Positions 3,044 through 63,375 of a DNA stretch of 64,000 nt are shown here, one piece after another. Below the pieces are notes generated by a model. That model was not told the origin of the DNA. It saw only the letters and a program-made list of their open reading frames with translations, and did not search any database. Source of the DNA: Tetradesmus obliquus (Eukaryota > Chlorophyta > Chlorophyceae > Sphaeropleales > Scenedesmaceae); the NCBI GenBank assembly GCA_030272155.1, contig CP126194.1, forward strand, positions 7,423,001 to 7,487,000, in the 5' to 3' direction. Position numbers and translations under genes: made by a program. Numbering within the stretch: the stretch's first letter is position 1; the number at the start of each line of letters is the position of its first letter.

Positions 3044-4277
3044 CTACTGCAGCAGTGGCGAGCTGGTGATGGCCTTGCTGATGTTGCCGGAGATCTCCTG
3101 CACCTTCTTGTTCTCCTGCAGCCATGACGCGCAGCGCAGCACAGCAAATGCAAAAGCATGCATGCGTCAAGTGACTGCGTCAGTAATGATGTGTTCTTGA
3201 CACGCTACTGCCTGGCTGCCGCATTGCCAGCCTGCAGAGCATCCAGCAATGCATGCAGGGCATGCGGTTGGCTGTGCCTACGGAATGTGCACTCCAGTCA
3301 ACCTTTCTCCTCAGCTGTTTCATGACACCTGCCCCAGCAACTCACCAGGAAGAACTTCTGCACAGCTGCAGCTGACAGCAGCACGATGGCGCAGTAGGCG
3401 GGGAAGAAGGACAGCGGCATGACGCCGCCCCAGACCTTGGTCGCGATGATCTTCTTGTAGAACAGCTGGCCCAGCGCGCCGTGCAGCACAAAGATGGGGA
3501 AGGAGATGGTGCCCTGAGGGGAAACAGCACAAGGGCAGGGCACGGCACAAGGGCAGGGCACGGCACAAGGGAGATATTGTTTTTGTTACAAGGATCATCA
3601 AGATTGGGCGTTGTCGTCAGCAGGCGCATGACGCGCACAAGCGGGCACACACATCAAATATTAGCGCAGCAAGGCAACCACCACTGCACATGCACGCAAG
3701 CACCATTTGAGAGTGTCTACAGAAGACAAACCAGCAGCTCAGCTGCAGCACACAGCCCCGCTCACCAGGTAGGTCAGCAGCGGGTGCCCCAGCATGGCTG
3801 TGAAGCCCTTGGCACAAGCAAATATTCTGAAACACGCGCTCAAGCACACCCCACGTAAAGGCAACAGAGACATGGGAGCCTTGTCAGCAGCTGCGATGTG
3901 CAGCCGCACTCACCAGGTACGTCAGCAGCGGGTGCCCCAGCATTGCTGTGAAGCCCTTGGCGCCCTGCAGCGTGTTGCGGTGGATCCTCACCACCAGCAG
4001 CGTGAACAGCGGCACAAACAGCAGCGCGCGCGTCAGCGGGTCATTCAGCGTGAGCCAGCCTGCTGCACGTGCAGCAGTGATGCCCAGCAGCGCCAGTGCA
4101 GGCAGCAGCGCGGAGCCTGCAGGGGCTGGCGGGGTGGCCAGGGGCTTGCCTTCGTCATCAACAGTCTCCACCATGACCAGGCGGCAGGCCGCCACGCCCA
4201 TGAGTACCTGGCGGAAGAAGCAGCAGCGGCAACAGCAGCAGCAGCAGTGGCAGCAGCAACAGCAGCAGCAGCAGCAG

Positions 4278-26041: not shown

Positions 26042-26223
26042 AGCACTCGTTAGTGAACAGCTGGCGCTAGCGCTGCTTGTATCAGATGATGGCGTGCTGG
26101 CAGATGTGTTTGGCATCAACCTGGCGCACTGAAGCACTCGTTAGTGAACAGCTGGCGCTGGCGCTGCTTGTATCAGATGATGGTGTGCTGGCAGATGTGT
26201 TTGGCATCAACCTGGCGCACTAG
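26001..26223 (+). repeat. 91-bp tandem repeat made from the 3' end of the N-acetyltransferase gene
   Basis: About 2.5 copies with a period of exactly 91 bp. Each contains the last 12-14 codons (VLADVFGINLAH), the stop and 3' noncoding sequence. As the period is not a multiple of three and each unit has a stop, only the first copy is coding. Confidence 0.95.
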
Positions 26224-42642: not shown

Positions 42643-45600
42643 TCAGCACCGGGGCATCTTGAAGTCCTTGCAGGCATCTGCAACGTTGGCCTTGATGTTG
42701 CGCATCAGCTCCATCTGGTCATCAGTGTCACTGTCCCACACCATCACCCCACTGATGCCCCGCGCACGTGCATAACACATCTTCATGCGGTGCGTCTCTG
42801 GCGTGTCAAAGCCCACCCAGTGGCCGCTGGTTGTCACACCGTACGCAGCCATCTGCACAGGATCAATGATGCTTTTTGCAACCACTTTCTTGATCTCGTA
42901 CCAGGCCAGGGTGTACTTTGTCTGCGTGCACTCCCCTTGCAGAGGTTGCCCCTCGTCGGAGTTCAGTGCGTTGCCAAGCCCAGGCCTCATCTCACCGCCA
43001 GCGAAGCGGAAGCCGCGGCCGTATGTGCCAAGCCCAAACACCAGCTTGTTCAAGGGCGCGCCCTGCTTCTCGTAGGCATCGATCGCGCCTGCTATGTCCC
43101 AACCCTTCTTGAGCGGGTTAATGCAGCTCAGCACTGGCGTGTGCGTGTTAACCTGCGCAATCAATGGCCACAGCAAAGCCCCGCACTGTGAGTTGCTTGA
43201 GCAGTGATCTAATGAAGTGTATACGGCCTCGTTTGCTCAAGACAAGGAATGCACCAGAACGGTGTTAGCGCATGATGTGATCAAGATATAGCTTTGGTGC
43301 CACCACCTCCATAATCGCAAGGATGGCTGCTAGAATCTTTGTGGCTGCTGGTAATCAAGTCGCTTGGCGGTCTTGATTTGATTTGAGCTGATCTCATGTG
43401 GGCTGCTGGCGCCTGATGTGAGCAGCCCTCACCTTTCTGTAGCCTGAGCCAAAGTCGAAGGCGCCATGGTAATCATACGTCATCAGGTTGATGAAATCCA
43501 CAGCAGCAGCGACTGCCTTGACGTTTGCGTGCTGTTGCGGGTCCGGTGTTGCACGCATGGCAGTCGTGAGCAGCATGCCTGCTGCTTTGGTTGCCGTTCC
43601 CAGCTCCGCCATGAGGCTGGTGAAGTCTGCCACTTCCTGAGGTGCCTTCCCGTCAAAGTTGGGGAACTCCCTGCAGCAACAGCAACATGAGCGACGGCAC
43701 CGGTTGCAGCACCACCACCAGTAGCAGCAGCAAGTGTGGTAGAAGCAAGAACGACATGACTGAATGAAACAAAATGGTCTGCCCAGCTGAAAGATGCATC
43801 TGTTGTTGGCGGCCGTCAGGCGCCACCCTCGGGCATGCATGTCACATGACATTCTTGAACTTGAGGCATAGATGCGCTAGTTGAACAATCAGCACCAGGA
43901 GAGGCAGAACATCACACACAGCTTTTGCTATCTTGTACAGGTCTCGCTTGGCCGCGATGCAACAGCATCGGTGCCAGCAGCAGCACTACACAACTCGTTT
44001 GCATGCAGGCACATTGTCAGGCACACACCACCAGTGTACAAGGGCGCACGCGCGCATACATGGGCTCAGCTCACCAGTCAATGTCGATGCCATCAAAGCC
44101 TCTCTTATTGGTGTAATCAATTGCTGAGCGAATGAACGCAGCCCTGTTGGCTGCACTCGCAGCCATTTCAGGGAACACCTTCTCCGACCCGCTGCCCTTG
44201 AACACCTCATCGCCGCGGCTGAAGCTCCAGCCCCCAATGGAGATGAGGGTTTTGAGGGCGGGGTTCTTGGCCTTCAGACCCTGAAGGCCTGCAATGAGCT
44301 CGTCCTCATTTGCCTCGACATTCACCACCTCAAAGGTCTTGCTGTCGATCTTGGCGAAGGCGTAGTTGATGTGTGTTGCCAGAGAGGGGTCGACGTCGGC
44401 CGGGCGATGCGCGTACGCGTCGCACCAGCCGGGCCGGCCGTTGTTGGAGCCGCGCCACTGCGCCCAGTCTGTGGTGTACAGCACCACCCTACACATCAGG
44501 CAAGATGCAGGCAGATAACGTTGGATGCCCAGGCAACAGCAAGGCCGGCGTAGTGAGACAACCATGCTGCAGCTGATAGCATGGCAATTGCGTTGTCACA
44601 ACATCAGTGAGGGCTGAAAGTTGTGCATCGCACAGGTATGCAACCTAGTGTAGGTAAGGCTTGCCAAGCACTAATGCGAAGGCGCTTGCTGCACCATGTT
44701 GCGAGGTGTGCCATGCTGGCGGTTAACGTCATGCCTGCTGTTATACTTGACACAGTACCGGCTCACTATTAAGCAGTAGCAACAGGCGTGTCAATACCAA
44801 CAGCAGCAACTGCAGCAGCAGCAGCAGCAGCAGCAGAGCGCCTGCCGTTTGATTGGCAGAGGGCGTGGGGCGCTGTGTTGACACCAATTCAGCGTAGGTT
44901 CAGCCAGGTGGCCAGCTGCTGGTTAGCAGCTGTGCCAGCCCCGGCCCAGATGCAGCACATCTATGTTTACACGATGCACACCAGGGCAGCTGCAAAGGCC
45001 GCTGGCGGCTTGCATCGAGCAGTTGACAGCAGCAGAAGTCGTGCCAGCTCACTTGTTGATCTTTGTCTTGGCGATGTTGTTCTTGGCCTTGGATGCGGCA
45101 CAGCCGCTGGGCTTGCCGCCGATCGGCACATCCAGCACAGTCTGTTTCCAGAACAGGAACGTGATCTTGATTTGAAAGTACGCCTTCCACTCGCCCGCGG
45201 CAGTCTGGCAGTATGTGTTCTGCGGAACATGCAGTGAGGAAAAGGACAGCTTGCAGCATGTGTCTGCTGCTGCTGCTGCTGCTGCTTAATGCGCTGCCTG
45301 TTCTGAATGCAGACACTGCAGCAACCTGCATGTACGACATGTAGTGTGCTTCGAGCCCCAGAGGGCAGGGCGAGGGAACTATGCATCCAGGCACATGTGC
45401 TTGATGTACAGCAGGCTGAGCTTCACATGGAGTGCACCACTCGCATCAATGTAGATGTGGCATGTTTCTGCTGAAGCTGAGTAACAGCGATGCAGTATGC
45501 CAACCCAATGCAATTATAAAGCAAACAGTTGTTGGCATGCTGTTGTTGTGGAAATGCCTGGACTTTCCAGGTGCACCCCTGTTGACTACAACAACAGCAA

Positions 45601-48600
45601 TGCTGCGTGCATGGTAACAGTGCTCCTCTCCTGCCAGCATCACTCACGGCATTGCACTGCTTCTCAGTGTCGCAGAGCTTGAGCGCGTTCTTGGGCTGGT
45701 CCGTAAACTGAAAATGGAACTCAACCACAAAGCTGACAATCGTCACACTGAGTGCCGCATTCACTTTGACAGCACCTTGCACTGGGTAGACCCTGCGGAC
45801 GCAGCACAGCAGCGGCTGCTATTCGGCAGATGCACAGCGTGCGCAGCGCTCAACAGCAACATATACGTGCATTGATCATGGCCTGCTTCAGCCAAAACTC
45901 CCCAGCTAGCGTCTGCCAGCTCTTGCTGCTACCACATGCTGTTCCACTGTGCCAGTTTTATCAGCAGCACATTGTGAAGAGCAAGCGCATGTCAGCACCG
46001 GCTCAGAACATATGCTGCCATCATGCATTGCAATGCCGATGTGTGATGATGATGTGTGATGATGCAATTGCCGATGTGTGATGCAGGTGATGTGGCGTCA
46101 TGATGCCAAGCAAACAACAATGCATGAGCGTATGCGCGTCGGTACAGTGCCAACCACTGATGCGCTGTTGCTGCAGCAGGACTCACGCAACTTCTGCCTT
46201 GAGGCACACACTGATGCCTAGGAACTTAAGTGCAGCTGCAATTTCCTTGGTGCCGATGCACCAGCTGATGCTGATGCCTGCCTTTGACTCAATGATCGCC
46301 TTTGCGCGCTCGTTGTTGTTGGCGTTACTAGAGTCAAGGATGTCGCAGGGTGAGTTTGGGCGCCCCAGGCAAACTTTGACCTGCAGGTGTGCGCACCATC
46401 AATATCAATGGCAATGGCATGGCATGGCACGGCCGCAGATCTTGAACAAGGATCATCATCAGTAGCATCAGGCTTGAGCAAGCAGCGGGTCAGCAAATAG
46501 CGGGTTCCGCAGAACCCTGTGATGAGCGTCAGCAGGGAGAACTGCCATCCTCAACCACTGTTCGGCACAAAGCACATCAAGCATTGTTTGGAAAGTGACA
46601 AGGCCCTTGACGGGGTGCAGCTGCAGCTTACTGACTGATCGGGTGAGAGCCCGCTGATGCAAATGCACGTTGATGTTCTGGTGATGCAAATGCACATTGA
46701 TGTTCTGGTGATGCAAATGCACGCTGATGTTCTGGTGACGCAGCGGTTCTGCTGGTGTCTCCATCACAGATGATCGACAACAACACCATGCAGCTAGCGC
46801 TAAAATAAGCGTGGAAGGCCGTAGGTTTCTACGGCACCCTCTGTCCGCGCATACCTGCTCATACCCATTCAGGTTTGCATACTCCAGCCATGGCAGGCAC
46901 ACGCCGCCTGACACAGACACGATAGTGGGCACAGGCCCCATCTGCACTGGCAGGCTGCAGCCGCCGTCCAGGCAGAAGGATCCTCCCTTCACACCGCCAG
47001 ACACCCACTTGCCCAGCCCTGCATCCTTGTCTGTAAAGAGGCTCTTGATGAAGTTTGTGCAGCCCCACTCGGGTGGCTTGCCGCCCTCGTCATCCTGGTG
47101 CAGCTTGCGCAGCGCCACACCAACAGCGCCACCATCGCTGCTGCTACTGCTGGCAGCTGCCCAGGATTGCTTCGGTGCCCAAGGATGATATGCATGCACA
47201 GGCATTGTTCCCGGCTGCCGCACAGCCCATTGATCCTCCCTCCAGCCCTGGGATGTGCGCTTGCTGCGCGCTGTGGAGGCAGCTGGAGCGGATGGGCGGC
47301 TGCTTTGCCTGCCCTGCTGCTGCTGCTGCTGCCAGTGCTTGATCTGCTGCTGAACCTCAGGGTCCTGCAGCACTTCCTCTTTAAAGTTCTCCTGCATATG
47401 CTGCTGCAGGCGGCGCCCCAGCGCCTGCATTGCACTCTCGCCAGGGGCAGCTTGTAGCTGAGCAGCAAATTGCTTCTCAAACTCCTGTTCGATCCTCGCC
47501 TCGCAGTGCATGATGGGCGTGTTTGTGTTGCAGACGCAGTCGATGAGGGCCTTAGGCATGGTGCCCTGCTTGAACTGCGCACACTTGGCAGCACGGTCTG
47601 CAGCAGCAGCAGCAGCAGTAGAAGCAGCAGCAGCATGATCGTAGTTTTGCATCTGCCTTTTGAGCCTCAGCTATCCGCTGCCTCACAGCGCTATGGCTGC
47701 TGACATTGTTGCTCGACACTCCTGGCGGCATGCTGCTTGTCACAGCAGGGCTACAGGCACAGATACACTGCAGCAGGCCACAGCTGTCTGCGGACAGCAT
47801 CTCTACTCCATCAAGCGCTGGCAGCACCCCTTGCCGTGCTTTGGCTGCCATCTGCCCCCTTCCACCCCGTACCTGCAGAGTAGTCTGTCGCAAACTGCCT
47901 GAAGGCAGCGTCGCTGCGGCCCGCAGCCTGCAGCGCCTGCAGTCCTGCGGAGCTGGCCCAAAACGCTGACAGCGCGGCATTGAGTCTGTCCCTGTTTGCT
48001 TGGCTTGGCGCGCTGCGGTAGGCCTGTAAGGCGCTGCGGATTGCTGCGTTGCCAGCAGTGAAGCGCTGCGCAACTGCGACGAGCTCTGGGTCCACCTGGG
48101 GGCGGCTGCCGGAGCCTGCTGCGCCAGGCACTGTGCTGCACGGCGCGACAAGGATGGTTTGGCCTGGGCGAATGAGGCCGGTGCCCTGTGGAGATACAGC
48201 AGTCGGTACCACAAACACACAATGACCGAGCTGCCGACGCGGCAAACACTGACAACAGCTGCATGTTGAATAGCAGAGGCTGCACCAGCCAATGTGATTT
48301 ATATTGTGTGGAACACAAGCCATATCAAAGTTGCTGCACTGTAGTATGGTGTAGCTGTGTGGGGATGCTTGCTGTGTTTCCTGCCCACCCGCGCACAGGC
48401 TACGCTGTGTGTGGCTCCCCGGCAGGGGCTACATGTCGGTGCAGGCACGCAGGCTGCAGAAATAGCTATCTCGCATATACAGCGCTACAGCTCATACCTC
48501 TTTCTGCAGCCACACGTTCAGTGCCACAAGGGCCTCCACAGTGGTGCTGTACATGCCTGCAATCTTGGACAGGTACTCCCCCTTGCGCACTGTGTGGCTC

Positions 48601-50462
48601 TTGCAGGTCTTGCCCGCTGGAATGCACACCTATGGGCAGCCAGACAGCACACGATTCTTGATCGTTTGTGGGGTAAAACACGAAGCCACGAAGCTCTCAG
48701 CAAGCTGCAGAAGGTGTTTGCAGGAACTGCTGCTGGTGCAGCAGGTTGCGGCTATGCAGACATGCTTGCCTGCTTGCCGCTTCAATACTTGCCGTGTGTG
48801 GCGACACACGCATGGCGAACCTGGCTGCAAGTGCAACAACCACACACTGCCAGGATCCAGTGCCAGGATCAGCTGTGCAGCAAACGTGGCCTGCAGCTGC
48901 TCATGAGCAGATGCACTGAAATGCATTGAGCCTTCTTTGGCAACCAGAAGAGCAGCACCCTCATGCACTGAAGAGCCTGCGCATGCTGAGTCATCGTGCT
49001 GAGCACCTCAGGCTGCAGTTGAGTCCCTGAAGTCAAGTGACAAGTTACTAGTCCCACGCATCAGAAGCAGGCAAGCCTGCTTGAGCTCACACTCTTCTAT
49101 GGATAAGTTAGAGAAAGACGAGGACAGGCCTGGGGTAACCCACCTGTGTGCCTGCAGGCACAGCCGCGCCTTCCTGCAGCTGCGGGTTCATGCCCAGCAG
49201 CTGCACCCCCTCCACCTGCAGCATACCCGCCAAGCTGCTGGGGTTGCTTGCAGGAACAGCAGTAGTGATGATCAACCCCTGGCAGGTGGCGTTGATTGGG
49301 AGGGGGGGTGGGGGTGGGCCGATCTCTGAGGGTGGGGTTGGCAGGGGTGGCGATGGCGGGCGGGGGCTGGCAGGAGGAGCGGGGCTGGGTGATGGAGGGG
49401 AGCTTCCTGAGCCAGCCACACACACCAGCTGCCCTATCTGGAGGTTGGTGCATTGCTCGTTGATTGACGGGTTGAGGAGGGTGAACTGCTGCAGAGGTAT
49501 GCCGGCTACTGAAGCGATGGACTGGCACGTGTCGCCGCTGACGACTGTGTACTGCTTGCTGCATGCTGTGTTTGCAGGGATGCACAAGCGCTGATCCACT
49601 TGAAGGTTGGTGCAAGCCGCATTGACAGAGGGGTTGGCTGCAATCAGCTGCGAGGCAGAGATGCCCGCTGCTGCAGCGATGCTGGAGCATGTGTCACCCG
49701 CCTTGACAGTGTAGCTGCTGCCTGCCTGGCAGTCATTGCCGCTGCCTTGCTCAAGGCACAGCTGCTGGCCTATTTGGAGGTTGGTGCAAGCCTGATTGAT
49801 GGTAGGATTCAGCTGGGTGAGCTGCTGCAGAGATATGCCTGTTGCTGTCGCGATGGACTGGCATGTGTCGCCGCTGACAACGGTGTACTGCCTGCGGCAT
49901 GCTGGGTTGGGGTTGCTTGGAGGGATGCACAAGCGCTGACCCACTTGGAGGTTGGTGCAGGCAGCATTGACAGAGGGGTTGGCTGTAATCAGCTGAGACG
50001 CAGAGATGCCCTGTGCAGCAGCGATGCTGGAGCAGGTGTCACCCGCCTGGACAGTGTAGCTGCTGCCCCCCACGCAGTCTTGGCCGCTGCCTTGCTCAAG
50101 GCACAGCTGCTGGCCTATTTGGAGGTTGGTGCAGCCCTGGTTGATGGTAGGATTCAGCAGCATGAGCTGCTGCAGAGATATTTTGTTGGCATCAGCAATC
50201 TTCTGGCACCAATCTCCTGGCTGCACTGTGTAGGATGTCACACAGCCCTGCAGCACACGCGCAGACGAGACAGCACGAGTTCAAAGATTAAATCGTAGCC
50301 CCCTTGATGGTGTACACGCGGCAAGCACCAAACCCAACACGCGTTGGTATAGCGGCTGTTCGCTTCTGCTTGCATCTCACCACGCACCTGAGCGTGGACC
50401 GCCAACGCTGTTGTGAGCAGCAACAAGCATTGAAACAAGCACTTAGAAGAGTAAGACGACAT
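42643..50462 (-). CDS. Secreted LysM-GH18 chitinase, multidomain
   Basis: Eleven exons (50462-50388, 50247-49144, 48629-48498, 48185-47873, 47597-46855, 46380-46187, 45792-45648, 45219-45053, 44488-44075, 43670-43433, 43152-42643) join in phase to 1344 residues. A signal peptide (MSSYSSKCLFQCLLLLTTALAVHA) is followed by five LysM modules (SYTVQPGDWC, SYTVQAGDTC, QYTVVSGDTC ...). Next come a Pro/Ser extensin-like linker and a further LysM-like segment (SHTVRKGEYLSKIAGMYS). A Cys-containing middle of about 450 residues matches nothing I know. The GH18 domain starts at KVVLYTTDW (about 958), with LISIGGWSFS, the catalytic DGIDIDWE (Asp1090, 1093, 1095, Glu1097), MTYDYHG and GVMVWDSDTDD. It should bind and hydrolyse chitin or related GlcNAc glycans outside the cell. 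The join at 45053/44488 decides whether this is one gene: the donor overlaps a stop codon (TGA at 45051-45049), so two genes remain possible. Confidence 0.85.
46656..46736. repeat. 27-bp minisatellite, three units
   Basis: Units begin GATGCAAATGCAC and differ by one or two bases. They lie in the intron between exons 47597-46855 and 46380-46187 of the chitinase gene. Confidence 0.95.
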
Positions 50463-51470: not shown

Positions 51471-52175
51471 ATGTCGCACCTGGCGCGTTTGCTGGGCAGG
51501 CTGCAGCTGGCGAACAAAGGTGACAATCAAACAAATGGTTCTAAATCGTGGAGCTATATGTAACACTCACGGTGGACTGAACGTTGCAGCACGTTGTTTG
51601 CCGCTTACTGCTGCTGCTGCTGCTGCTCTCACTACTGCTGCTGCATCAGCCCATGCAGGTGACCTGCAGCCATTGGTGTCGCTACGGCAGCCACAAATCT
51701 TGCAACAACTGTTGCAGCATGGCTCGTTTGCAGCTGCGTGCTGCAGCATGCAGCAATCAAGCAGGTGGGTACTGCAGTAGGCTGCGTGTGCTTGCAGCAT
51801 GCTGCCGAGCTTGAAACCCCCGCTGCAGCCATCGCTTGCCAGGCTCACCAGATGCCGCTCCAGATTTATTTTGATTATATAAAGTAAGCAGATTGCTCGT
51901 TCCTGCTTTCACCAGCAGTGCACCCAGCACAGGGCATACAACATAGCAGCGTACATCGTCACTGGAGCTGCTTGCTGCCGCGATATGTGCAGGTATTCGT
52001 CTGCCGGCGCAGCTTCGGCTGATGCAAGTGAGACAACCGCAGCTTCAGATAGCAGTAGCAGCAGCAGCGGCAGCAGTGAACAAAACCCTGCATCTCCCGG
52101 CCATCAAGCCTGGCCGGAGCCCTTGAGCTCTTTTGCTGCTAGGCCGGCTGCAGCTGCAGCTGCAGCAACAGCTCC

Positions 52176-52219
<44 letters not shown>

Positions 52220-53803
52220 CAAACTTGCCGAAGCTGGCGCTGCAGCAGCGGCGGCGGCGTGTGTTCACTGAGCGCAGCGAGCTTGAGAAGAGCATCCTGG
52301 CCTGCCCCAGCCTCAAGGCACTGGCTGGCGTGGTGAGTGGCTGATGGTGCTGATGCTAGTGGTGAAGAGTGTAGCTGCGCCAGTATGAACATCTTTCAGG
52401 CAGCAGCAGCAGCAGCAGCGACAGCATATTTGCCCCAGCCTTGAGGCGCTGACTGGCAAGGTGAGTGGGGTTGTGCAGGAGGTGCTGCTGGCGGGGAGTG
52501 TGGCAGTGCTGACATTTTTCTGCATATCTGCAGGCAGCAGCAGCAGCAGGAAGGGCATGTTATCAAGCTGCACTGCTGTGCATGTTGCTGCTGGGCTGGG
52601 GCAAGCAGCTGCTTGCGTGCTGATGTGCAGCTCACATGCTTGCAAAGTTGCTTCCTGTAGAAGGGCTGCAAGGGGGCTGTGCTGTGCAAGGGCAATTTGA
52701 AGTACTTGTACGGCATGCAGCAATGCAGGTCACGTGTTGTAGCTGGCAGACCTGCTGCTGCTGCTGCTGCTGCTGCAGGTCTCCTTGCAGCCGCTGCCAG
52801 CTGCTGCTGCAGTGCTGGCCATGCACAGGCTGCGGCGGCTACACCACGACGCTGCACAGCAGGCACGGAAGCAGCAGCAGCAGCAGCAGCCGGAAGAGCA
52901 GCAGCAGCTGGCTGCGCAGGTGCTGCAGCAGCTGACGGAGCGGCTGTCAGAGGTGCGGCGATGCGTTGTGTCAACACGTTGTTCCAAGCAGCTGCCCATG
53001 CTCCTCCAGCGTGCCGTTCGTTGCATAACAGGCAGGGCTAACGCTGATGTATCAAGCGTCACGTAGTTCGCCCCTGCGCCTGCTTGTGCCTCACCTAGCG
53101 CTTTGCATCTTCATCAAACACCATGTCATCACACAGAATGCGCATGTGCAGCGCCTCCACAGCATAGGCTGCAAGGCAAGTATAGCAATAGTCCCTACAC
53201 ATCACCTGCTTGCCTCACCGATCTGCATAACCTACTGCAGGTGCACGGCCAGCTGCCGCCCCGGGCCATAATGCCTTACAACCATACTTTGACCACACCA
53301 AACCACCAACTACAGCACCATCAGCATTAGTACACGCGGGCTTTGCCATGTTATCATTTTATATACGCGCGCAGGTGCACGGCCAGCTGCCGCCCGTGGC
53401 CGTGGTGCAGCTGCTGCGCTGCTACAGCCAGCTGGGCGGCGTCCCCCAGGGCAGCACGGCGCTGCTGGCAAGCCTGCTGCAGCAGCTGCAGGGCCATGTG
53501 GGCTCGCTGCAGAACGAGTGAGCGCGGCGGCTGATGGGTGGAGCAAATGATAGAGCTGCTTTGCAGCAGCACCGTGACAAGCCCATGTGCTTGGATGGCT
53601 GTGTACGTGCAGCTGCAACAGCATCGCAGTCCAAACCACACACCACGGGTCAAAGGTCAAGAGGGTGTTTAAATTATCATCAAGCTGTTGCTGCTGCTGC
53701 TGCTGCTGCTGCTGTTTGTTTGCTGTGCAGCCACCTGCCTGTGCTGGCATCAGCGCTGGCTGCCCTCAACGCCTCAAACCTGGACTCACTGCAGCAGCCA
53801 CCA

Positions 53804-53839
<36 letters not shown>

Positions 53840-53863
53840 GAAGACACAACAACAATAAACCCT

Positions 53864-53899
<36 letters not shown>

Positions 53900-56800
53900 G
53901 CGTCCAGCACATCTTTGAATACAGCCGCATCCACTGCAGCTGCTGAGTCAGCGAGGGCGCTGCTGCTGGAGCTGTGTGAGGCAGTGCAGTGCATCAGCCC
54001 CACTGCGACGAGCTTTGGGGCAAGCCAGGTGGCCCACTTTGTGTCTGCCATGGCGAGGCTGGGGCATTATGACTGGCAGGCGATGCGCCACGTGTGCGTG
54101 CTGGCGGCAGCACACGCGCAGGTGCGCTGGGGGTGGTGGTGCAGTGTCAGCCAGTCAGGCTTGTTCAAGCCTTAGCAGGCAGCCCTTTGCAGCTTAGACA
54201 TGGCCAGCACCCTCAGCAGCACCCTCAGCAGCACATGTAATGGCGCAGCGATTGAGGTCCAAGTTCGTGCATCTGCTGCTCTCTTCAGACATGCATTTGT
54301 GTATGTGTGGCATGCTCTGTCCCTGCTGCTGCGTGTGGCCCACTGTGCCTGCTGCTGCTGCTGCTGCTGCTGCTGCCCCTCCAGGCCATGACTGCCGCGC
54401 AGCTCACAAGCATGCTGGTGGGCTGCGCCAAGCTGCGGCACTACGACCAGCAGCTGTGCACGCTGCTGGCGGCGGCAGCAGCGGACGCCATGCCGGGCGC
54501 CACTGGGGCGCAGGTGGCCCAGATGGCGTGGGCGCTGGCGCATTTGAAGCTGGACAGCCCCGAGGTGTTTGCGGCAGCAGCGCAGCAGGTGCGGCGGCGA
54601 ATGTTCATTTTTATTGTTTTATTGTGCGACATGCACTTCAGTGTGGGGCAGTCCTGAGGTGTTTGCAGCAGCACAGCAGGTGCGGCGGCTTGATGTGGCT
54701 GTGCTGCAGCTGGCGTAGGTTGGGTTGTTTCCTGGGCGCTGGCACGCCTTAAGCTGGACAGCCCTGAGGTGATGACGCACCAGCATGACTACCCTTGTCA
54801 GCACATGCTCTGCGTTGTAATCCCGCTGGTTGGGAAGGTGTCTCAACCTGCTACGCAACGCTTATCGTTCTTTTCAGCTGCTGGGTACAGAGGCCGGGGT
54901 TGTTGGCCTAAACCACTGCACCAAACCTTATCACATCGCATGCACTTACGTTAATACCATATTCTTTCTACTCCCACGCAACCCTGCAGGCCGTGGCGCG
55001 CGTGCACGAGCTGGAGCCGCACGACATTAGCATGATCGCAACGTTTTGTGCGGCTGCATCTCACTCAACAGAGCACTGGTTTAGTCCCGGCAAACAGCAC
55101 AGCTTTTCACCTCCCCAACCCTATCCAATCATGGAGATGGTTGGCCCCAAGCAGCAATCATGCAACATGCCATGTTGTGCGCTCACCTGTCACTGCACTG
55201 CTCTGCCAATGCACACAATGCACGCACTCAACCCTTGCAGGCTGTGGCGCGCGCACACGAGCTTGAGCCGCGCCACGTGTCCATGATCGGCTGGGCCTTC
55301 GCCGTGCGCAAGGCCTACAGCCCAGCTTTATATGATGCCCTGGCAGGCCGCGTGGTGGGCCAGCTGGGCGCTGCTGCACTGGAGCCGCACCACTGCAGCC
55401 TGCTGGCGTGGTCCTTTGCCAAGCAGGGTGTGAGGAATGAGGCGCTGCTGCAGGTGCTGGGGGAGCAGGCGGCTGCTGTGGCTGACCGGCTGGCGCCACA
55501 GGTGTGTGTGCGAACAAGGTTTGGTGGTGGCCAAATGTTGGCAAGTTGTTTCTGTTTCCGTTGATGTGCCACACCCTGTCATGAAGGAGAGTTGTCGGTC
55601 GCTTTGATGGCGGGAGCATTGCTGTAGCGTCTTGGGTTCTTAGTAGTCTGCAGAAGCAGGGTGTGAGGCATGAGGCGCTGCTGCAGGCGCTGGGGGAGCA
55701 GGCTGCAGCTGTGGCTGACCGGCTGGCGCCACAGGTGTGTGTATGTGTGTGTGCGTTGTCTGTGTGCGGAGATGGTGGTGTTGTAGTGCAGCATGCAGCT
55801 GTTGGGGAGGGCTTATTGAGTAGTCAGGTAAAATGCAGCTGGAGTTGATGCGGCATGATACACAGTGTAATAAGCAATGAGGCGCCAGGAGGATACCTGT
55901 CGTACCTCTGTTCGTAGCAGGCTGTAGAACATTCTGCACACTGCTTTGTGTTACTGCATGCTGGCTCTAGCCGCCCTCACTGTGCTCCTTCAGTCAAAAC
56001 GTCCACACAAACAGTTGTCAAAACTGCTGCTTTATTTTTGTCCCTCCCTGCCTCGCTTGGCCACCTGCAGAACATCTCCAACCTGGTGTGGGCGTACGGC
56101 CGGCTGTCGTACCCGCACCCGGAGCTGTTCAGCGCGCTGGCTGCTGCTGCCAAGGCTGCCGCACTTGACGGCTTCAACGACCAGAACCTCACAGACCTGG
56201 CCTGGGGCTGCGCGGCAACAGACTTCAAGGTGGGAGGGGCAGCTGCTTTTTTCGACACTGGTGGTGCATGTTATGCTGTTATGCCAGTAGGGGCTGGTCG
56301 CCTTTGTGAGCAGCGAATGGTGGGCAGCTGCCCCGGGCATGCTGGCTGAGCCACCAGCAAGCAGCGTGGGTGGTGCACTGCTGCAGCCCTCAGCATGTGC
56401 ACTGCTGCAGCCCTCAGCATGTGCACTGCTGCAGCCCTCAGCATGTGCACTGCTGCAGCCCTCAGCATGTGCACTGGTGCCTCCGGTGCTGTAACCCGGG
56501 CACGTGCCAAGAGTGCAGTGCAGTGCAGGATTCGTTTACTTTCGCTTCCTCAATATGCCCGCATGCACTGCCATTTTCGCCTGCTGCCTCCTGCACTGCA
56601 CTCAAACGCAAACCGAAACCTTGCAGGACCCTGAGCTCTTCGAGCTGCTGGCACGTGCCACGCTCTACAGATTGCCTTGGCTTCTTCAACATGTGATCAG
56701 ATGCACTGCTGCCTGCTGCCTCCCGCACTGCACTTCACCACACAGGACCCTGAGCTGTTCGAGCTGCTGGCGTGATGCACTGCTGGCGACCGCAACATGT

Positions 56801-57792
56801 GCTGCCCTGCCTGCTCTGCTGCAAACACAAACCCAACTCTTGCAGGACCCCGAGCTGTTTGAGCTGCTGGCGCGCGCCACCCTCAGCCGCATGCACGAGC
56901 TGTCCCCGCACTCCCTGAGCGACCTCACATGGGCCTTCGCAGCAGCGCGCCAGCCTGGCGCAGAGGCGCTGCTGGCTGCTGCCGCGCCTGCTGCTGCGGC
57001 CTGCATGGAGCGCTTCAGTGGGGGCATGCTGGCCGACCTGCTGTGGAGCTACGCGTCGGTGGGCGTGAGGGATGAGGAGCTGCTGGCGGCGGCCGCTAAG
57101 GTGCGGAGAGTGGCGTGGGTGTAGTCAGATGTATGGCGGTGCGATGTATGGCGGGTGCAGCGTAGTGTTGCTGTTGCACATGCTGCTAGCCACTGTTTGC
57201 GCCGCATGCACGTAGTGCTGTTTGGTCTCAGCAATGAGCGTGGCGGCATGCTGGCCGACCTGCTGTGGAGCTACGCATTGGTGGGCGTAAGGGAGGAGGC
57301 GCTGCTGGCTGCGGCTGCCAAGGTGCGGGTGCGGTGCGGGTGTTGTTGACAGAGGGATTGCATGTTGCATGTCAGCAGCCCCAACAATATGCATGTGAGA
57401 TGTATGGCAGGTCTAGCGCAACGTGGTGGCTGCCACACCTGCTTGTAGCCGGCGATAGCCCCGCATGAAAGCTGTGCACTTTGGTTGTCGCCATGAATGT
57501 GTGTACGTGCTTGGCACCGCTGTGTCCTCTGTTGTCAGCTCTGTCTGTGGTGCCTGCCAGATGCTTGCTGCCTGCAGTGACAGCAACGCACCTCTTCAGT
57601 AAGCTGTTGTAACCTGGGTGCAATTGCTGTGCGCCGCAGGTGCTGCCTCAGCGCAGCCTGAGCCTGGGGTCAGATGTGGAGGCGCAGGCCAAGGTGCTGT
57701 GGGGGCTGCGCAGCCTGGGCTACAGGGACGCGGAGCTGGAGGCAGCACTGGCTGAGATCATCCCCAACGTGCAGGAGCTGCTGGAGGGCTGA
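51471..57792 (+). CDS. Tbc2-like helical-repeat organelle RNA factor (second gene)
   Basis: Eleven exons (51471-51519, 51659-51764, 51993-52332, 52779-52952, 53375-53517, 53731-54121, 54385-54588, 55241-55501, 56071-56229, 56846-57100, 57640-57792) join in phase to 744 residues. The start MSHLARLLGRLQLANK looks like a targeting leader. Ser and Gln runs fill residues 65-130. From about 140 (RRRVFTERSELEKSILACPS) paired helical repeats follow, such as VAQMAWALAHLK, SMIGWAFAVRKAYSP, CSLLAWSFAKQGVR, SNLVWAYGRLSYPHPELF and LADLLWSYASVGVRDEELL. This layout is that of Tbc2/FAST-kinase-like RNA factors of algal organelles. Only repeat architecture is shared with the gene at 37336; they are not recent duplicates. 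Its introns hold at least eight partial copies of exon edges. An exact target cannot be given. Confidence 0.75.
52177..52218 (+). repeat. (CAG)14 microsatellite, polyGln
   Basis: Fourteen units in frame in exon 3 of the second Tbc2-like gene, upstream of the helical repeats. Confidence 0.95.
52431..52468 (+). repeat. Partial exon 3 copy with donor
   Basis: Copies 52303-52340 (TGCCCCAGCC...GGTGAGTGG) with several substitutions, about 128 bp downstream. The GTGAGT donor is intact. Confidence 0.85.
53237..53267 (+). repeat. Partial exon 5 copy with acceptor
   Basis: Matches 53371-53401 (GCAG then GTGCACGGCCAGCTGCCGCC) with two differences, 134 bp upstream of the true exon. Confidence 0.9.
54652..54773 (+). 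repeat. Two partial copies of the end of exon 7
   Basis: 54652-54688 repeats the last codons and donor of exon 7 (GAGGTGTTTGC...CAGCAGGTGCGG). 54733-54773 repeats the slightly earlier segment GCTGGACAGCCCTGAGGTG. Confidence 0.85.
54980..55038 (+). repeat. Partial exon 8 copy with acceptor
   Basis: About 59 bp similar to 55230-55289: CTGCAG then codons for AVARVHELEPHDISMI, against AVARAHELEPRHVSMI in the true exon. Frame is kept, but no donor follows. Confidence 0.9.
55650..55742 (+). repeat. Partial exon 8 copy with donor
   Basis: Repeats 55413-55505 (KQGVRHEALLQALGEQ, then donor GTGTGT) about 237 bp downstream. It would encode nearly the same residues. Confidence 0.9.
56373..56480 (+). 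repeat. 24-bp minisatellite, four and a half units
   Basis: Unit GTGCACTGCTGCAGCCCTCA plus GCAT, four essentially perfect copies in intron 9 of the second Tbc2-like gene. Each unit contains CTGCAG, resembling an acceptor. Confidence 0.95.
56608..56773 (+). repeat. Two partial exon 10 copies with acceptors
   Basis: 56608-56666 and 56738-56773 both carry an AG acceptor followed by GACCCTGAGCTSTTCGAGCT, matching the start of exon 10 at 56846 (DPELFELLA). The units are spaced about 110-120 bp apart. Confidence 0.9.
57241..57328 (+). repeat. Partial exon 10 copy with donor
   Basis: Repeats 57022-57106 (GGMLADLLWSYALVGVREEA, then GTGCGG) about 220 bp downstream, with the frame kept. Confidence 0.9.
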
Positions 57793-58555
57793 GCTGGCGG
57801 CAGCTTGGCGGAAGGTTGAGCTGGGATGTGGCCTGCTGGTGAGGCAGTACTTGCCGTGCCCGGCACGTGGGCCTGCTCAGTTATGCTGTGGTGACGAGCC
57901 AATAGGACTGCTGGAGGGCTGAGCTGACCTGAGAGCTTGCTTGTCGGCTGACTTGAAGGCTAGTTCACGTTATGGTGGTGCAGGGGCTGGGGGCGTTATG
58001 GCCGCGGCCTCGGGGTGTGTTGGGCAGGCACGGCTTGATTGTAACTGGTTGACAGCTATGGTGCAGGGGGAGCTTGGGGAGAGCGGCTACGTGATTTAGT
58101 GCCGTGCTGCTGCTGGCTCCACTTGAGGTGTTACGTGCTGCTGGGTTTGACACGGTGCCTGTTTGGGATGTGCCCGCACAGATGCAATCATTAAAGCATG
58201 ATGCTGCGGTGTACACAGCGGCAGTCACACCACCTAGACGCTTCACATCCAAACCATGCTGTAACAGCGCAAGCTGAAGAGCTGCAGCACATCCCCATGG
58301 CACACGATCAAGCCAAGTCTGATGCCAGCGTGGCGCCCGCCATGACAAATGACGCCTGTCAGTGACACTTCGTCGCAAGCTCAATTTCAGCCGAATTTTA
58401 AAGATCCACAGCATTTTAACGACATTCTTTCGTTTCTTGCCTGAAGAGCTCTGCTTCTGCTGCGACCCGCAAGCCCTACTTGTCTGCATACTTTATTGTT
58501 GCTGTATCTTCGCAGATTAGTTACAAAAAACTAGCTTTAGTACAACACAAACATC
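57793..58555. other. Intergenic stretch
   Basis: A TGTAA motif at 58040-58044 lies about 250 bases after the Tbc2-like stop. A fragment near 57907-57925 repeats the last codons and stop of that gene (CTGCTGGAGGGCTGAGCTG). The promoter of SSF1 must lie at the right end. A long minus-strand frame at 57965-58489 has no recognisable features. Confidence 0.5.
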
Positions 58556-58747
58556 ATGGCCAAAACACGCAGAGTAAGCGCCGCTGTTGGCCGCGCGAGC
58601 ATTGCTGGCTGCAAGTCACAGCAGCTTGAACGACTCTGGCTGCTGTTGCGTGCAGAGGAAGAAGAGGTCGCATGTAGTGGAAGGTGCAGACCCCAGCAAA
58701 AAGCCGGACCCGCAGACATTCGTGTTCCGGCGAGGGAAGCACTGGGT

Positions 58748-58785
<38 letters not shown>

Positions 58786-59175
58786 AATTGCAGGAAGCAC
58801 TTGACTTTGCTCTGCGAGTGAATTGTTGTGCTGAATGGCCTGGGAGAGGCATGCAATATATCGCGCTTAGCTGCGCAGAACAGACTTAGGACTGTACAGC
58901 TCAGGCCAGAGGTGTCAAATGGCGCTCTGCATCATCCTGACACCTGTAGCGCGTTGTGCATTCAGCTTGCACAGAGAAAAATGGCGTGGCTGCCATCTAT
59001 CTCGCAGCTGTGGTGAATGTGTTGCCTCTGCAGGCCGCGGCTTCCTCATGCAACGCAGACTTAGTGGGCTAGACTGGAGCCTGTGTTGCAACAAGCTGCT
59101 GTGCATGGCAGGAGTCTGCGGTGCATGGTGCCGGCACTGCAGCTATGTTGCACCGCATGCTGCATTGCCTCATCC

Positions 59176-59217
<42 letters not shown>

Positions 59218-59604
59218 GCTCAGGGCATGCTTGGCGACCTGGAGTCAGACCTGCGCCGTATGATGCTGCCCAACACAGCCGCCGCGCTGCGTGAGAGCAA
59301 GCGCAACAGCCTCAAGGACTTTGTGTCCGTGGCAGGGCCCCTGGGCGTGAGCCACTTCATCATGCTGTCAGCCACTGAGAAGGCCACCTACCTGCGCCTG
59401 GCCAAGGCGCCTCGGGTAAGCAGCAGCAGCAACAGGAGCAGCAGCAGCAGCAGGCTGGGGGTGCTGGGTTTGGCAGGCTCATGAAGGCAGCAGCAGCAGC
59501 AGCAGCAGCAGCGCCAATGCCTGGCCAAGTCGTTGGGGGTGAGCAGTGGCGGCGCTGAGCAGGCTGTGTGTGGCAGGCGTCTGACAGCAGCAGCAACAGC
59601 AGCA

Positions 59605-59643
<39 letters not shown>

Positions 59644-60328
59644 TGTGCGCAGGCGACCAGGGCAAGCGGGTTACAGAGGCCGGGCTTCAGTGCAAGCAGT
59701 TGCGGCGGCCAGCAGCCCAAATTGGCACAGCAATCAGCACTTCAACCTGCACCGCGACTTTTTGTCCACAACCTTTGAAGGTATATGAACATGTTGTGTA
59801 ACATGTCGCAGGGCCCCACCCTCACGCTGCGCATCAAGGCGTACAGCCTGGCCGCTGACGTGGCAGCATCACAGGCGCGGCCCCGCATGCCGCCAAACGC
59901 GTTCAAGTCGTCGCCGCTGGTGGTGCTCAACAACTTTGACCCCAAGCAGAAGCAGCTGGCGCTGGCTGCCAGCCTGTTCCAGGGCATGTTCCCCAGCATC
60001 AACGTGGCCAATGTAAACCTGGCCACCTGCCAGGTGCGCACAGCAGCGCGCAGAACCGCATTGCCCTGTTGGTGCACAGAGACACGTTATCTTACCGCCT
60101 CACATGCATTAATGTGGCCTTACATGCGTCAACCTGGCCGACTGCTGGGTGCGCAGCAAGATAGTTGATTGCTGGTCTTGTTGTGCTGGCCTGTGGTGGA
60201 GAGATGTGCCCGGTGCTGCCACATGTACAGTGTTCTTTCTCACTGCATTGCTGGCAGGACATCGCATGGCGGCTATGGGCCAATCACTGCTTTGCCGTGC
60301 TTGTCTGGTACAATTGACATCTCTCACA

Positions 60329-60387
<59 letters not shown>

Positions 60388-63375
60388 GCAGCGCGTGGTG
60401 CTGCTGAGCGTGGACCCTGCCACTAACCTCATCAGCCTGCGCCACTTCACCATCAGCACCGCCCCCAGTGGTGTCAAGAAGAGCCTCAAGGCGCTCATGG
60501 CACGGCAGGCGCTGCCCGACCTAGGGAAGCTGCAGGACGTCAGCGAGCTGCTCACCAAGAGCGGCTACGGCTCGGTGCGTGACAGGTGTTTTCTGGTTGC
60601 GTGTGTTGGTGTAATGGTTACCGCTGTGTTTTCTCTTGATGCACATATCAAGAGCACGTGCAGTTGGCAGCTTGCGCTTCTGAAGTGCTGATTGTTGTGA
60701 CGCATCGTCTGGATGTGTGTTTTGCAGCCGTTCTGTTGAAGATGTGCAAAGTTGTCTGAATGTGTGTGTATTGTTGGTGCAGCTCCTGCATGGCGGGTTG
60801 ATGAGCAGCTGATTCCTCTACAGAGCCTTCCGGGGCCTGATGACACGAATCACAACAGTCTTCAAAGTTTTCTGACCGCTGCTGCACCTGCATCTTGGCT
60901 GGCACAGTGCCTGCCTGATGTTTATGTGACTGGGTTTTGGTGTTTATGTTTTCTGCACAGGCATGCACGCCATTGTCTTGTTTTCCTTCGCTCTACAGCA
61001 GCACCCACCTGCCCTTCGCTAGCAGCGCTCAGCCGCACGCAGCTCCTGCTGCTGCGACAGCTCCTCTTCGTCCCTTCTCCACTGCCTGACTTACATTCAA
61101 ATGTTGTTACATAACATGTTACACCGTCTTGCAGGAGTCGGAGGGTGAGGACGCTGAGACGTCGCGTGTGGTGCTGGAGGCGCCCGCAGCAGGCAGGGCG
61201 GGCCGTGCGCTGGTGGGGCGGCAGAGCCGTGTGCGGCTGCACGAGGTGGGGCCGCGCCTGGAGCTGGAGATCATCAAGGTGAGACCTGAACGTGCTGAAC
61301 AGCTCGAAGATTTCGATCAATTTGCATTTGTATCGCGTCCAGGGTTGAGGTGACAGGGCTGCATGAGGTGGGCCCGCGCCTGGAGCTGCAGATTGTCAAG
61401 GTAAGCAATACGGTAAGGCTTGAGATGGGTATTTGAGTGTCGTTGTCAGTCAGTTTTGGACAGTTTGATTCGTGCCGAAGGATTATGTGACAGGGCTGCA
61501 CGAGGTGGGCCCGCGCCTGGAGCTGGAGGTCGTCAAGGTGAGGCTTTGATGTTTCAACAGTTTGAACTTTTTTGAATAGGTCTGCCTTGTGCATTGCGGA
61601 GTGTGCATGGGTCCGTTGATACCTGTTACAATAAAGTGTCTGCTGTGCTTTTGGTAGTGGTTTCTTGCGGTATCTTTACGGTGCGCATGACCATGTATGT
61701 CACAGCAGCAGGGCTTGCTGTTGTTTGGAGTGCCTTGTGCATTTTGTTCAGAATGTGGCAGTACAGTTGCAACTTTTGCATGGCGGGCTGATGAGCAGCT
61801 GATTCCCCTACAGAGCCCTCCGGGGCCTGATGACACGAATCACAACAGTCTTCAAAGTTTTCTGACCGCCAACCAACTAGACTAGTCAACCAATTTGTTG
61901 CCCTGTAACTGCAGTGCTTGCTCTGCCACCCGTTGTGTTGCCCTACTTGTGTGTATCCGCAACTGACAGAGCAGAAAAATGGCTGTTACAATCGCCTTGG
62001 CCTTTTCAGGCTGTCAAGATGACTCTTTCCACAAACTGCACTCCATGTCCTCACTGTGTCAATTTGTGGTGCTGCCTTGCCGGCTGCTTCTTCCGCATCG
62101 TCAGGTGGAGGAGGGCCTGTGTAGCGGCGCCGTGCTGTACCACGCGCATGTTGCCTCTTCCCCCTGCCTCCTAATTATCACCACACACCCATCTGCCGAT
62201 TGCAGGTTGAAGAGGGCCTGTGTGGCGGCACTGTACCACGCGCATGTTGACTCTTTCCCCTGCCTCCTAATCCTCACCACACACCCATTCGCCGATTGCA
62301 GGTGGAGGAGGGCCTGTGTGGCGGCGCCGTGCTGTACCACGCGCACGTGGCGCGCAGCAAGGCGCAGGTCAGCGCGCAGCAGGCGGCCAAGGACGAGGCG
62401 GCCAAGCTGAAGGCGCAGCGGCGGCGGCAGCAGGAGGACAACGTGCGGCGCAAGGAGGTGCGGCCAGGGCAGGGGGGCCAGGGTGTGTGTGTGTGTGTCA
62501 TGAGGGCCACCTGCAGCACAACTTCAGGAGCACAATATCGCATTGCATTACGTCATTGCTGCACAAGGCGTATGTGATGGTGTGATGCTGCTGAGGTGTG
62601 GCGTGAGAGCGCAGCAGGATGTGAAGCGGCAGTCGCATGTGGGGTGACTGATGTTTTGAGCAAGGGGGATGGTATGTGTGTGTGTGGGTCTAGCGGCTGC
62701 ACAGCAGCAGCAGCGGCAGCGGTGGCGGCAAGTGCTGCACCCAGCTGTTACCACCGCCATCCCTTCCATGCAAGTGTCTCCCGGTGTATTGGCGTTGATG
62801 GCTGCTGTTTCCCACTCTTGCTCCCGTTCATTGCTGTGTCTCCTCGCTGAATGTCCCGTGCTGCTGCTATCCAATTACTGCTGTGTCCGCATGTGCAGGC
62901 TGAGCAGCGGCGGCAGGCTGAGCTGGCGGAGTTTGCTCGCCTGGCCAAGCAGGACCCAGAGGCAGCTGCAGCAGAGAAGCGCAAGCAGTGGTGGCGCAAG
63001 CAGCAGCGGGAGGCAGGCGAGGCGGGGGATCAGCGTGCTGCTGCTGCTGACGAGGATGATGATGATGACATTGCTTACTACAGGCAGGAGGTGGGGGAGG
63101 AGCCGCAGGAGGATGACAAGATCGGGCTGCGGGGTTCAGGGGGCCGGGGGCGGGGAGGGTTTAGGGGCCGCGGGCGCGGCCGCAGCAGCGGCAGCAGGGG
63201 CGGCGGCAGGGGCGGGGGCAGGGGTAGCAGCAGCGGCGGCAGCAGAGAGCGCGGGGGAGGGGATGCGGGAGGTGGGCGGGGCGGCAGTGGCTTTGGCGGC
63301 AGCAGTAGAGGCAAGCGGCGAGGCGGCTCAGCAGACGGGTTTGATGCTGGCAGGAAAAAGTTCAAGAAGCAGTAG
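58556..63375 (+). CDS. PPAN: SSF1/Peter Pan, Brix-domain 60S ribosome biogenesis factor
   Basis: Eight exons (58556-58573, 58656-58745, 59224-59415, 59812-60033, 60392-60574, 61135-61278, 62302-62457, 62899-63375), all multiples of three, give 493 residues (human PPAN 473). MAKTRRRKKRSHVVEGADPS is a basic start. The Brix domain follows from about residue 27 (FVFRRGKHW), with NSLKDFVSVAGPLGVSHF at 64-81, PTLTLRIKAYSL, FQGMFPSINVANVNL, RHFTISTAPSGVKKSL and VRLHEVGPRLELEIIK. Exon 7 holds the linker and start of a coiled, basic region. Exon 8 has an acidic stretch (DEDDDDDIAYYRQEVGEEP), as in the human protein, and a long Gly/Arg/Ser-rich tail ending KKFKKQ. The family acts in the nucleolus in 27S pre-rRNA processing and large-subunit assembly. 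The Gly/Arg tail is longer than I would expect and could bind RNA. Confidence 0.95.
58751..58783 (+). repeat. (CAG)11 at the 5' end of SSF1 intron 2
   Basis: Eleven uninterrupted units starting five bases after the exon 2 end (donor GTGAG). Confidence 0.95.
59177..59215 (+). repeat. (CTG)13 at the 3' end of SSF1 intron 2
   Basis: Thirteen uninterrupted units ending eight bases before the exon 3 start, in the position of the polypyrimidine tract. Confidence 0.95.
59586..59642 (+). repeat. CAG/CAA microsatellite in SSF1 intron 3
   Basis: CAG array with a few CAA interruptions, in mid-intron; another shorter CAG run follows the donor at 59416. Confidence 0.9.
60332..60385 (+). repeat. (CTG)18 before the SSF1 exon 5 acceptor
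   Basis: Eighteen uninterrupted CTG units ending six bases before exon 5; the longest pure tract in this window. Confidence 0.95.
60787..60879 (+). repeat. 93-bp direct repeat, copy 1 (SSF1 intron 5)
   Basis: Nearly identical to 61777-61869, 990 bp apart. It starts TGCATGGCGGG and ends TTTTCTGACCGC. The two copies flank exon 6. Confidence 0.9.
61350..61543 (+). repeat. Two partial SSF1 exon 6 copies with donors
   Basis: 61350-61405 and 61487-61543 each repeat the end of exon 6 (61235-61283): LHEVGPRLELQIVK with donor GTAAGC, and LHEVGPRLELEVVK with donor GTGAGG. Both keep the reading frame and differ only conservatively. Confidence 0.92.
61777..61869 (+). repeat. 93-bp direct repeat, copy 2 (SSF1 intron 6)
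   Basis: Second copy of the repeat at 60787-60879, with only a few substitutions. Confidence 0.9.
62100..62301 (+). repeat. Two tandem partial SSF1 exon 7 copies with acceptors
   Basis: Units of about 102 and 96 bp at 62104-62205 and 62206-62301 each begin with the first codons of exon 7 (V-E-E-G-L-C, Tyr-His-Ala-His-Val) and end with the acceptor GCCGATTGCAG. The first copy has a TAG codon in place of the Gly codon after Cys. The true exon at 62302 is the third unit. Confidence 0.92.

Follow-up and report, generated by a model that had tools for sequence, protein, structure and literature searches.

Copies of exon edges in Tetradesmus obliquus introns as probable remnants of frequent local tandem duplication

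Introns of the green alga Tetradesmus obliquus repeatedly hold short copies of the edges of their own flanking exons, the splice site being mostly intact. We describe these copies in a stretch of 64,000 nucleotides (GenBank assembly GCA_030272155.1, contig CP126194.1, positions 7,423,001 to 7,487,000 of the forward strand; hereafter ‘the window’) and in further stretches of the same genome, and propose that they probably arise from frequent local tandem duplication, in units mostly of 90-150 bp and untied to splice sites, with the spare exon edges then left to drift. Directly observed are the direct and local nature of the copies, the sizes of the units, the random placement of intact units and a shortage of copies from exon interiors; the exon-edge copies themselves are real, and not peculiar to the window.

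Results

Sampled sequence and gene models

Together with the window, we sampled 19 stretches of 10 kb taken at random, which brings the total to 254 kb, or approximately 0.25 Mb of a source genome of 104.66 Mb in 17 contigs (a 20th stretch, L031, consisted entirely of N and was left out). A gene finder self-trained on this sequence, with GT-AG introns fixed and with guards against repeats, returned 316 exons and 270 introns in 46 genes with 300 or more coding bases, and learned the splice consensus CAG/GTGAG for donors and GCAG/G for acceptors (the stroke marking the junction). The predicted D1 protease (contig C3) shares 350 of 354 aligned residues with the solved Photosystem II D1 protease 1fc7, which we take to be the protein from Scenedesmus obliquus; the alignment has one 4-residue gap, and two of the four differences lie at its start. 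The exportin-1 model, with 21 predicted exons, aligns over residues 4-1063 with solved exportin-1 (1067 of 1121 residues compared). Both proteins are thus well reproduced by models that are predictions trained on the sequence itself. Pfam matches were obtained for nine of ten predicted proteins submitted, and name the acyltransferase, exportin-1 (IBN_N, Xpo1) and SSF1 (Brix) genes discussed below; for the ‘Tbc2-like’ protein Pfam gives FAST_1, its name coming from the initial annotation alone. In several cases the gene finder labels a copy as an exon.

Introns hold direct copies of their own exon edges

Comparison of the window with itself confirmed the short boundary-spanning copies that the initial annotation had reported in introns of the Tbc2-like, SSF1, acyltransferase and exportin genes. 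Among pairs less than 3 kb apart, 36 are direct vs 3 inverted; those farther apart are balanced (46 vs 41). Over the full 254 kb, local pairs scoring at least 120 number 229 direct and 4 inverted, with none in one shuffled version. The initial annotation had also proposed self-alignment of introns against a control; in the strictest form of this test, where the junction was left out of the query, only the edge's own adjacent intron was searched and a score of at least 105 was demanded, a direct copy was found for 54 of 402 exon edges (window plus 19 stretches), as against 0 in inverted introns at a score of 100 and 2 at a score of 90. An extra set of edges gave copies for 14 of 140, with none in the inverted control, although this set is non-random: 5 of its 14 matches fall in one locus (L012) whose repeated fragment was known beforehand, and 1 in a kinesin locus chosen for its array.

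A broader scan compared 1281 60-bp segments with the 1.2 kb on either side (score of at least 120). Donor edges had copies in 49 of 193 cases and acceptor edges in 46 of 202; for exon middles the count was 4 of 107, for intron middles 82 of 544 and for intergenic segments 56 of 235. The inverted controls gave, in this order, 1, 3, 2, 5 and 1. When the segments were set against other loci in three permuted rounds, matches at the same score numbered 1, 3, 1, 2 and 0, seven altogether. Nearly all of the boundary matches (88/95) span the junction, with GT (43/47) or AG (39/41) mostly present; donor-side copies lie downstream in 39 of 49 cases and acceptor-side copies upstream in 37 of 46, much as had been annotated. 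The splice dinucleotides, initially described as nearly always intact, are indeed mostly so (45/54 in the strict set), a wording that proves a little strong for the extra set (9/14).

The random stretches are at least as rich in copies as the window, with 37 of 129 vs 12 of 64 donors and 35 of 138 vs 11 of 64 acceptors. A copy of a flanking exon's edge can be recognised in at least 46 of 263 introns, and a local direct copy is present for 428 of 4128 intron tiles. Tandem repeats are, as a matter of general knowledge, a usual source of assembly error, but to read the copies as artefacts of this kind seems extremely improbable, given that they differ from their source by a median of 13% and that 16 of the 20 stretches contain direct pairs at close range.

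The copied unit and its arrays

Spacing between copy and source is narrowly distributed: among 68 copies, 48 lie at 91-167 bp and 18 at 193-263 bp, with one at 73 and one at 407. Since an intermediate copy is present for 12 of the 18 at about double spacing, the second peak represents mainly two units. Homology extends beyond the exon part into the remainder of the unit in 30 of 49 pairs (p<0.05, with approximately 2.5 expected), the other 19 being undecided; here a stricter alignment had dropped 18 of 88 boundary-spanning pairs, their best alignment missing the boundary, and 49 of the 70 left were usable. A neutral simulation retains unit homology in 60-75% of pairs, against 29 of 45 observed by the equal measure. 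The copies are thus direct and adjacent (intact units at 27 places), with the whole unit duplicated, as in small local tandem duplication.

What we regard as the young state of the process is seen in a kinesin gene (G000:C2:7430665-7431657, L050), where a full tandem array of 6.1 copies of a 141-bp unit, with 91% matches, joins the intron end to the exon start, so that each unit carries the acceptor site and the exon's first 26-27 codons. Pfam matches reflect this directly: a stretch of approximately residues 262-289 recurs a further six times ahead of the exon. In an S41 peptidase gene, Pfam matches likewise reveal a repeated fragment, one that contains a stop.

Other arrays were noted in passing. 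At L038 1-845, 7.8 copies of a 108-bp unit repeat the exon start of a predicted carboxyl-transferase gene; in the window, a 91-bp array at 25997-26221 (2.5 copies at 97%) lies at the 3' end of the predicted gene 24014-26041, and a 345-bp tandem repeat at 49421-50181 (2.2 copies at 85%) lies in the predicted gene 42643-50163, whose product contains a tandemly repeated segment. In the kinesin gene, CAG/CTG runs form the tract before the acceptor sites, and runs of at least three units make up 5.3% of bases in the window and L019-L038 (without L031). As a cause of duplication such runs were rejected: they are not enriched at the ends of intact units (28/180, expected 24.5), with a mild excess at the ends of all pairs (155/660 vs an expected 121.7).

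Copies placed in the window

The initial count of more than a dozen copies in about 60 kb is borne out: the Tbc2-like and SSF1 genes together contribute 13 copies (14 if another, partial copy is counted), and the acyltransferase and exportin-1 genes a further 3. On the plus strand, the Tbc2-like gene has a donor-side copy of the exon end at 52332 at 52421-52466 (74% identity, GT kept), which the gene finder called part of an exon. Further along follow an acceptor-side copy of the exon start at 53375 (53237-53274; 31 bp at 93.5%, AG kept), a donor-side copy of the exon end at 54588 (54633-54685; spacing approximately 98, the second partial copy being 54733-54771) and an acceptor-side copy of the exon start at 55241 (54975-55038; spacing 250, 81.5% over 65 bp). 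The segment 55421-55509, with exon end 55501, has a donor-side copy at 55654-55742 that is 95.5% identical over 89 bp, homology ending 8 bp beyond the donor site. Two acceptor-side copies, 56582-56665 (80%, AG kept) and 56711-56771 (from the window self-comparison), belong to the exon start at 56846, and 57018-57125, with exon end 57100, has a donor-side copy at 57240-57346 (86% over 108 bp; remaining unit homologous, p 0.005).

Also on the plus strand, the SSF1 gene repeats the exon end at 60033 in a weak donor-side copy (60100-60154; 73% over 55 columns) and has two donor-side copies of 61235-61283 (exon end 61278), at 61357-61405 (87.8%) and 61494-61542 (93.9%). Before the exon start at 62302 stands an array of approximately 96-bp units, the first of which provides an acceptor-side copy at 62102-62154 (94.3%) and the second, 62203-62298, has its own AG (84% over 151 columns). 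On the minus strand, the acyltransferase gene has a donor-side copy at 3761-3815 (exon edge 3914, spacing 147) and an acceptor-side copy at 4821-4871 (spacing 121), and the exportin-1 gene a donor-side copy at 33235-33278 (exon edge 33311, spacing approximately 70).

Two neighbouring introns of SSF1 also contain sequences resembling C/D-box small nucleolar RNAs (60792-60880 and 61782-61870), 94% alike over 102 bp; both match Rfam snoR160, at 25.5 and 24.3 bits and so below the gathering score of 42, and a third relative (77%) lies on contig C2. The longest of the window's three local inverted pairs is an inverted repeat at 1-1347 (71% over 526 columns).

Boundaries are not favoured by intact units

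That donor-side copies fall downstream, acceptor-side copies upstream, and each with a splice site of its own, is forced by geometry: the extra copy of a boundary-spanning duplication has to sit in the intron for the protein to remain as it was. A further reading, in which boundaries would be singled out for duplication, finds no support in the intact units (aligned length more than 0.8 of the spacing, spacing 60-400): 17 of 27 touch a boundary, where random placement gives 14.7 +- 2.4, although this comparison has 27 places only; at 93% identity or more, the figures are 3 of 5 and 3.1 expected. When all pairs at spacings of 60-400 are taken, decayed ones included, 58 of 72 lie at a boundary vs 33.7 +- 4.2 expected.

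Coverage by age shows where this surplus comes from. The share of tiles covered by young copies (at least 93% identity) is 3.8% at exon edges, 4.4% at junctions, 1.4-5.2% within introns and 19.2% in intergenic sequence, such that exon edges are no richer than deep introns (5.2%); copies of any age cover 18.5%, 17.3%, 9.7-11.5% and 24.1% of the same classes. The exon-edge surplus thus builds up as copies grow older, which is what slower decay on the exon side would produce. Intergenic pairs, we observe, are longer and more widely spaced, and may include other types of repeat.

A process aimed at exon-intron boundaries, linked to splicing or to transcription, might be invoked to explain the figure for all pairs, and would draw further on arrays detected by Tandem Repeats Finder (TRF) with a period of at least 75, for which 18 of 22 lie at boundaries. 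This last count speaks against random placement; we give it less weight because whole arrays easily touch an exon and because the gene finder calls some copies exons, such that the class is probably inflated. Given the fit of the intact units to random placement, and with young copies no more frequent at exon edges than in deep introns or intergenic sequence, a boundary-aimed process appears very unlikely.

Decay, constraint and use of the copies

The splice sites of the copies do not appear to be specially kept: the splice bases are retained in 46 of 49 and 43 of 49 cases, about as often as the neighbouring last two exon bases (84/98). Nor are reading frames, first noted as kept in many copies, generally kept, with stricter alignments giving 16 frame-shifting gaps and 6 that are not (looser 90-bp alignments, to which we prefer the stricter, gave 220 and 16).

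Tests of coding constraint depend on how a pair was found. A neutral copy beside a constrained exon is expected to show a ratio of divergence, at codon positions 1 and 2 relative to intron, of approximately 0.5; pairs found from the intron (12) give 0.81 (0.52-1.3), while pairs found from the exon (16 reliable units) give 0.29 (0.19-0.39), and the 11 of these not called exons give 0.26. The route by which pairs are found therefore biases this test in opposite directions, across the neutral value. Across 14 intron-found pairs, exon halves are preserved no better than intron halves (0.904 vs 0.894 on average).

Several results nonetheless weigh against purely neutral drift, the low ratios in exon-found pairs (0.29 and 0.26) among them. 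Third positions diverge 2.04 times (1.61-2.61) as much as first and second positions, against 1.42-1.45 in simulation, where simple arithmetic predicts approximately 2 (in the first simulation, only runs with a third-position rate of 0.7 were valid, those at 1.0 letting indels into exons). Splice dinucleotides are kept in 38 of 45 copies vs 52-61% of simulated ones, which were older on average. Copies contain 11 stops vs 18.3 +- 4.0 expected (p 0.04); the accompanying nonsynonymous expectation, 433 vs 436 counted, was scaled on the same differences at positions 1 and 2, and so is no independent test. The exon side is detected as copied 3.1 times (1.95-4.3) as often as the adjacent intron, simulation giving 1.8-2.25. 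Among 22 pairs with exon identity of at least 0.92 (one counted twice, and two spanning double units), 10 show no homology past the splice signal; by the simulation's own measure, 3 of 9 in the top identity class lack intron homology vs 7-20% simulated. Conditioning on whole-alignment identity makes intron homology appear abruptly absent, and conditioning on the exon side lessened the effect but kept it; such loss could reflect larger indels in the intron, gene conversion or constraint. Finally, units shorter than 70 bp occur at none of 22 boundary places vs 3 of 9 tandem places in introns or intergenic sequence, such that a splicing filter against short units is possible.

It could be supposed from these data that all or a considerable share of the copies have a function, as alternative splice sites or mini-exons under selection. 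The conservation of positions 1 and 2 in exon-found pairs, the slight deficit of stops, the retention of splice dinucleotides above simulation and pairs such as 55421-55509 and 55654-55742 (a predicted 81-nt exon), with high exon identity and no intron homology, would all fit. We nevertheless consider this unlikely, as intron-found pairs lack such conservation, splice bases are kept about like exon bases, and splice signals at the other end of the copies show no enrichment when the same introns serve as background (p 0.15, 0.10). The D1 protease gene, moreover, has an exon-start copy 91 bp upstream with its own CAG, yet the solved protein uses the downstream site; splicing to the upstream one would lengthen the exon by 91 nt and put it out of frame.

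Gene conversion acting between an exon and its copy, and holding their exon halves together as the intron halves drift apart, would also produce pairs of high exon identity without intron homology, along with an exon-to-intron detection ratio above that simulated. Saying this, the range of that ratio touches the simulation, and third positions diverge about as much as intron, at 0.75 times (0.52-1.05; 16 units), which makes conversion quite an unlikely source of the pattern. Neutral decay of the copies is the simpler reading, and one that we favour without holding it proven; weak constraint on some copies is possible. To us, the copies look like accidental leftovers, although some of them may have a role.

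Discussion

Bringing these observations together, we suggest a model in which local tandem duplication, rather than any affinity for splice sites, populates the introns of T. obliquus with exon edges. Breaks or replication errors would duplicate some 90-150 bp in place, whether through error-prone repair of staggered breaks or through replication slippage; units internal to exons would be mostly purged by selection, and units spanning a boundary would survive, with the outermost splice site presumably remaining in use in most genes and the protein intact. The spare exon edge, now in the intron, would then most likely drift neutrally; with the true exon held constant, the exon half of each pair would stay recognisable for longer than the intron half, and old events would come to appear as isolated exon-edge copies ending at the splice site. 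It is because the exon half changes more slowly that boundary copies stand out after decay. Some units may be duplicated again, giving rise to arrays. As to the view, put forward initially, of an ongoing and genome-wide habit, what holds is that the events are frequent (16/20 stretches) and partly recent, as near-identical arrays suggest; what finds no support is any special treatment of boundaries or of splice sites.

The underlying kind of mutation is a known one, occurring here at high density and with a narrow unit size on existing boundaries, in the one genome sampled. A survey of 2009 by Gao and Lynch reportedly found within-gene duplication to be common in eukaryotes and able to move splice sites; the copies described here differ in lying within introns and in their narrow unit size.

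Tandem duplication as a source of introns is established (PMC4974935; review PMC3443670), with cases including ATP2A1 (Hellsten et al. 2011) and a potato RdRp gene (Ma et al. 2016, PMC4974935). In such AGGT-type intron gain, short genic segments with splice signals are tandemly duplicated, much as here, but a new intron emerges from a duplicated exon segment or intron-exon piece, whereas here an existing boundary is duplicated within an existing intron; no case of a new intron turned up among the copies, intron gain not having been specifically searched for.

Small tandem duplications are given as the commonest short (<100 bp) insertions in humans by Schimmel et al. (2021, PMC8355091), and those ascribed there to break repair are, like ours, short, direct and transposon-free; our units differ in being mostly 90-150 bp, and staggered-break repair is one candidate cause of them. 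With introners (PMC9860276), the copies share the repeated creation of splice-site-bearing sequence in genes, but they match their own neighbourhood and not other loci, with just the seven matches noted above across three permuted rounds of 1281 segments. Tandem or mutually exclusive exons would carry a splice site at both ends of a copy, for which we found no enrichment (p 0.15, 0.10), and would show coding selection, where the ratios straddle the neutral value of approximately 0.5 (0.26 in exon-found pairs not called exons, 0.81 in intron-found pairs). Judged by titles and the starts of abstracts, none of the papers among the matches listed gives such a description for T. obliquus or another alga, which is weak evidence of absence.

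A bolder proposal is that an unusually active tandem duplication of approximately 120-bp units, a length comparable to that of a nucleosome core or an Okazaki fragment, provides about one intron in six with decoy splice sites and adds to intron length, some of the copies being retained, through selection or conversion, as a source of alternative splicing; this we put forward tentatively, as a doubtful though conceivable extension of the model.

For T. obliquus, the noteworthy part is the density of these events and their narrow unit size. The duplication process is a mutational force that may lengthen introns: those with a copy have a median length of 376 vs 292 for those without (p 0.04), although a match is also likelier to fall within a longer intron. 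A 2018 paper (PMC5966456) put the size of the T. obliquus genome, 107.7 Mb, down to intergenic regions and introns, and local tandem duplication may be one reason for that size. The copies also mislead gene prediction, as the finder used here shows, and they caution that exon-edge copies with intact splice sites can accumulate without needing a function.

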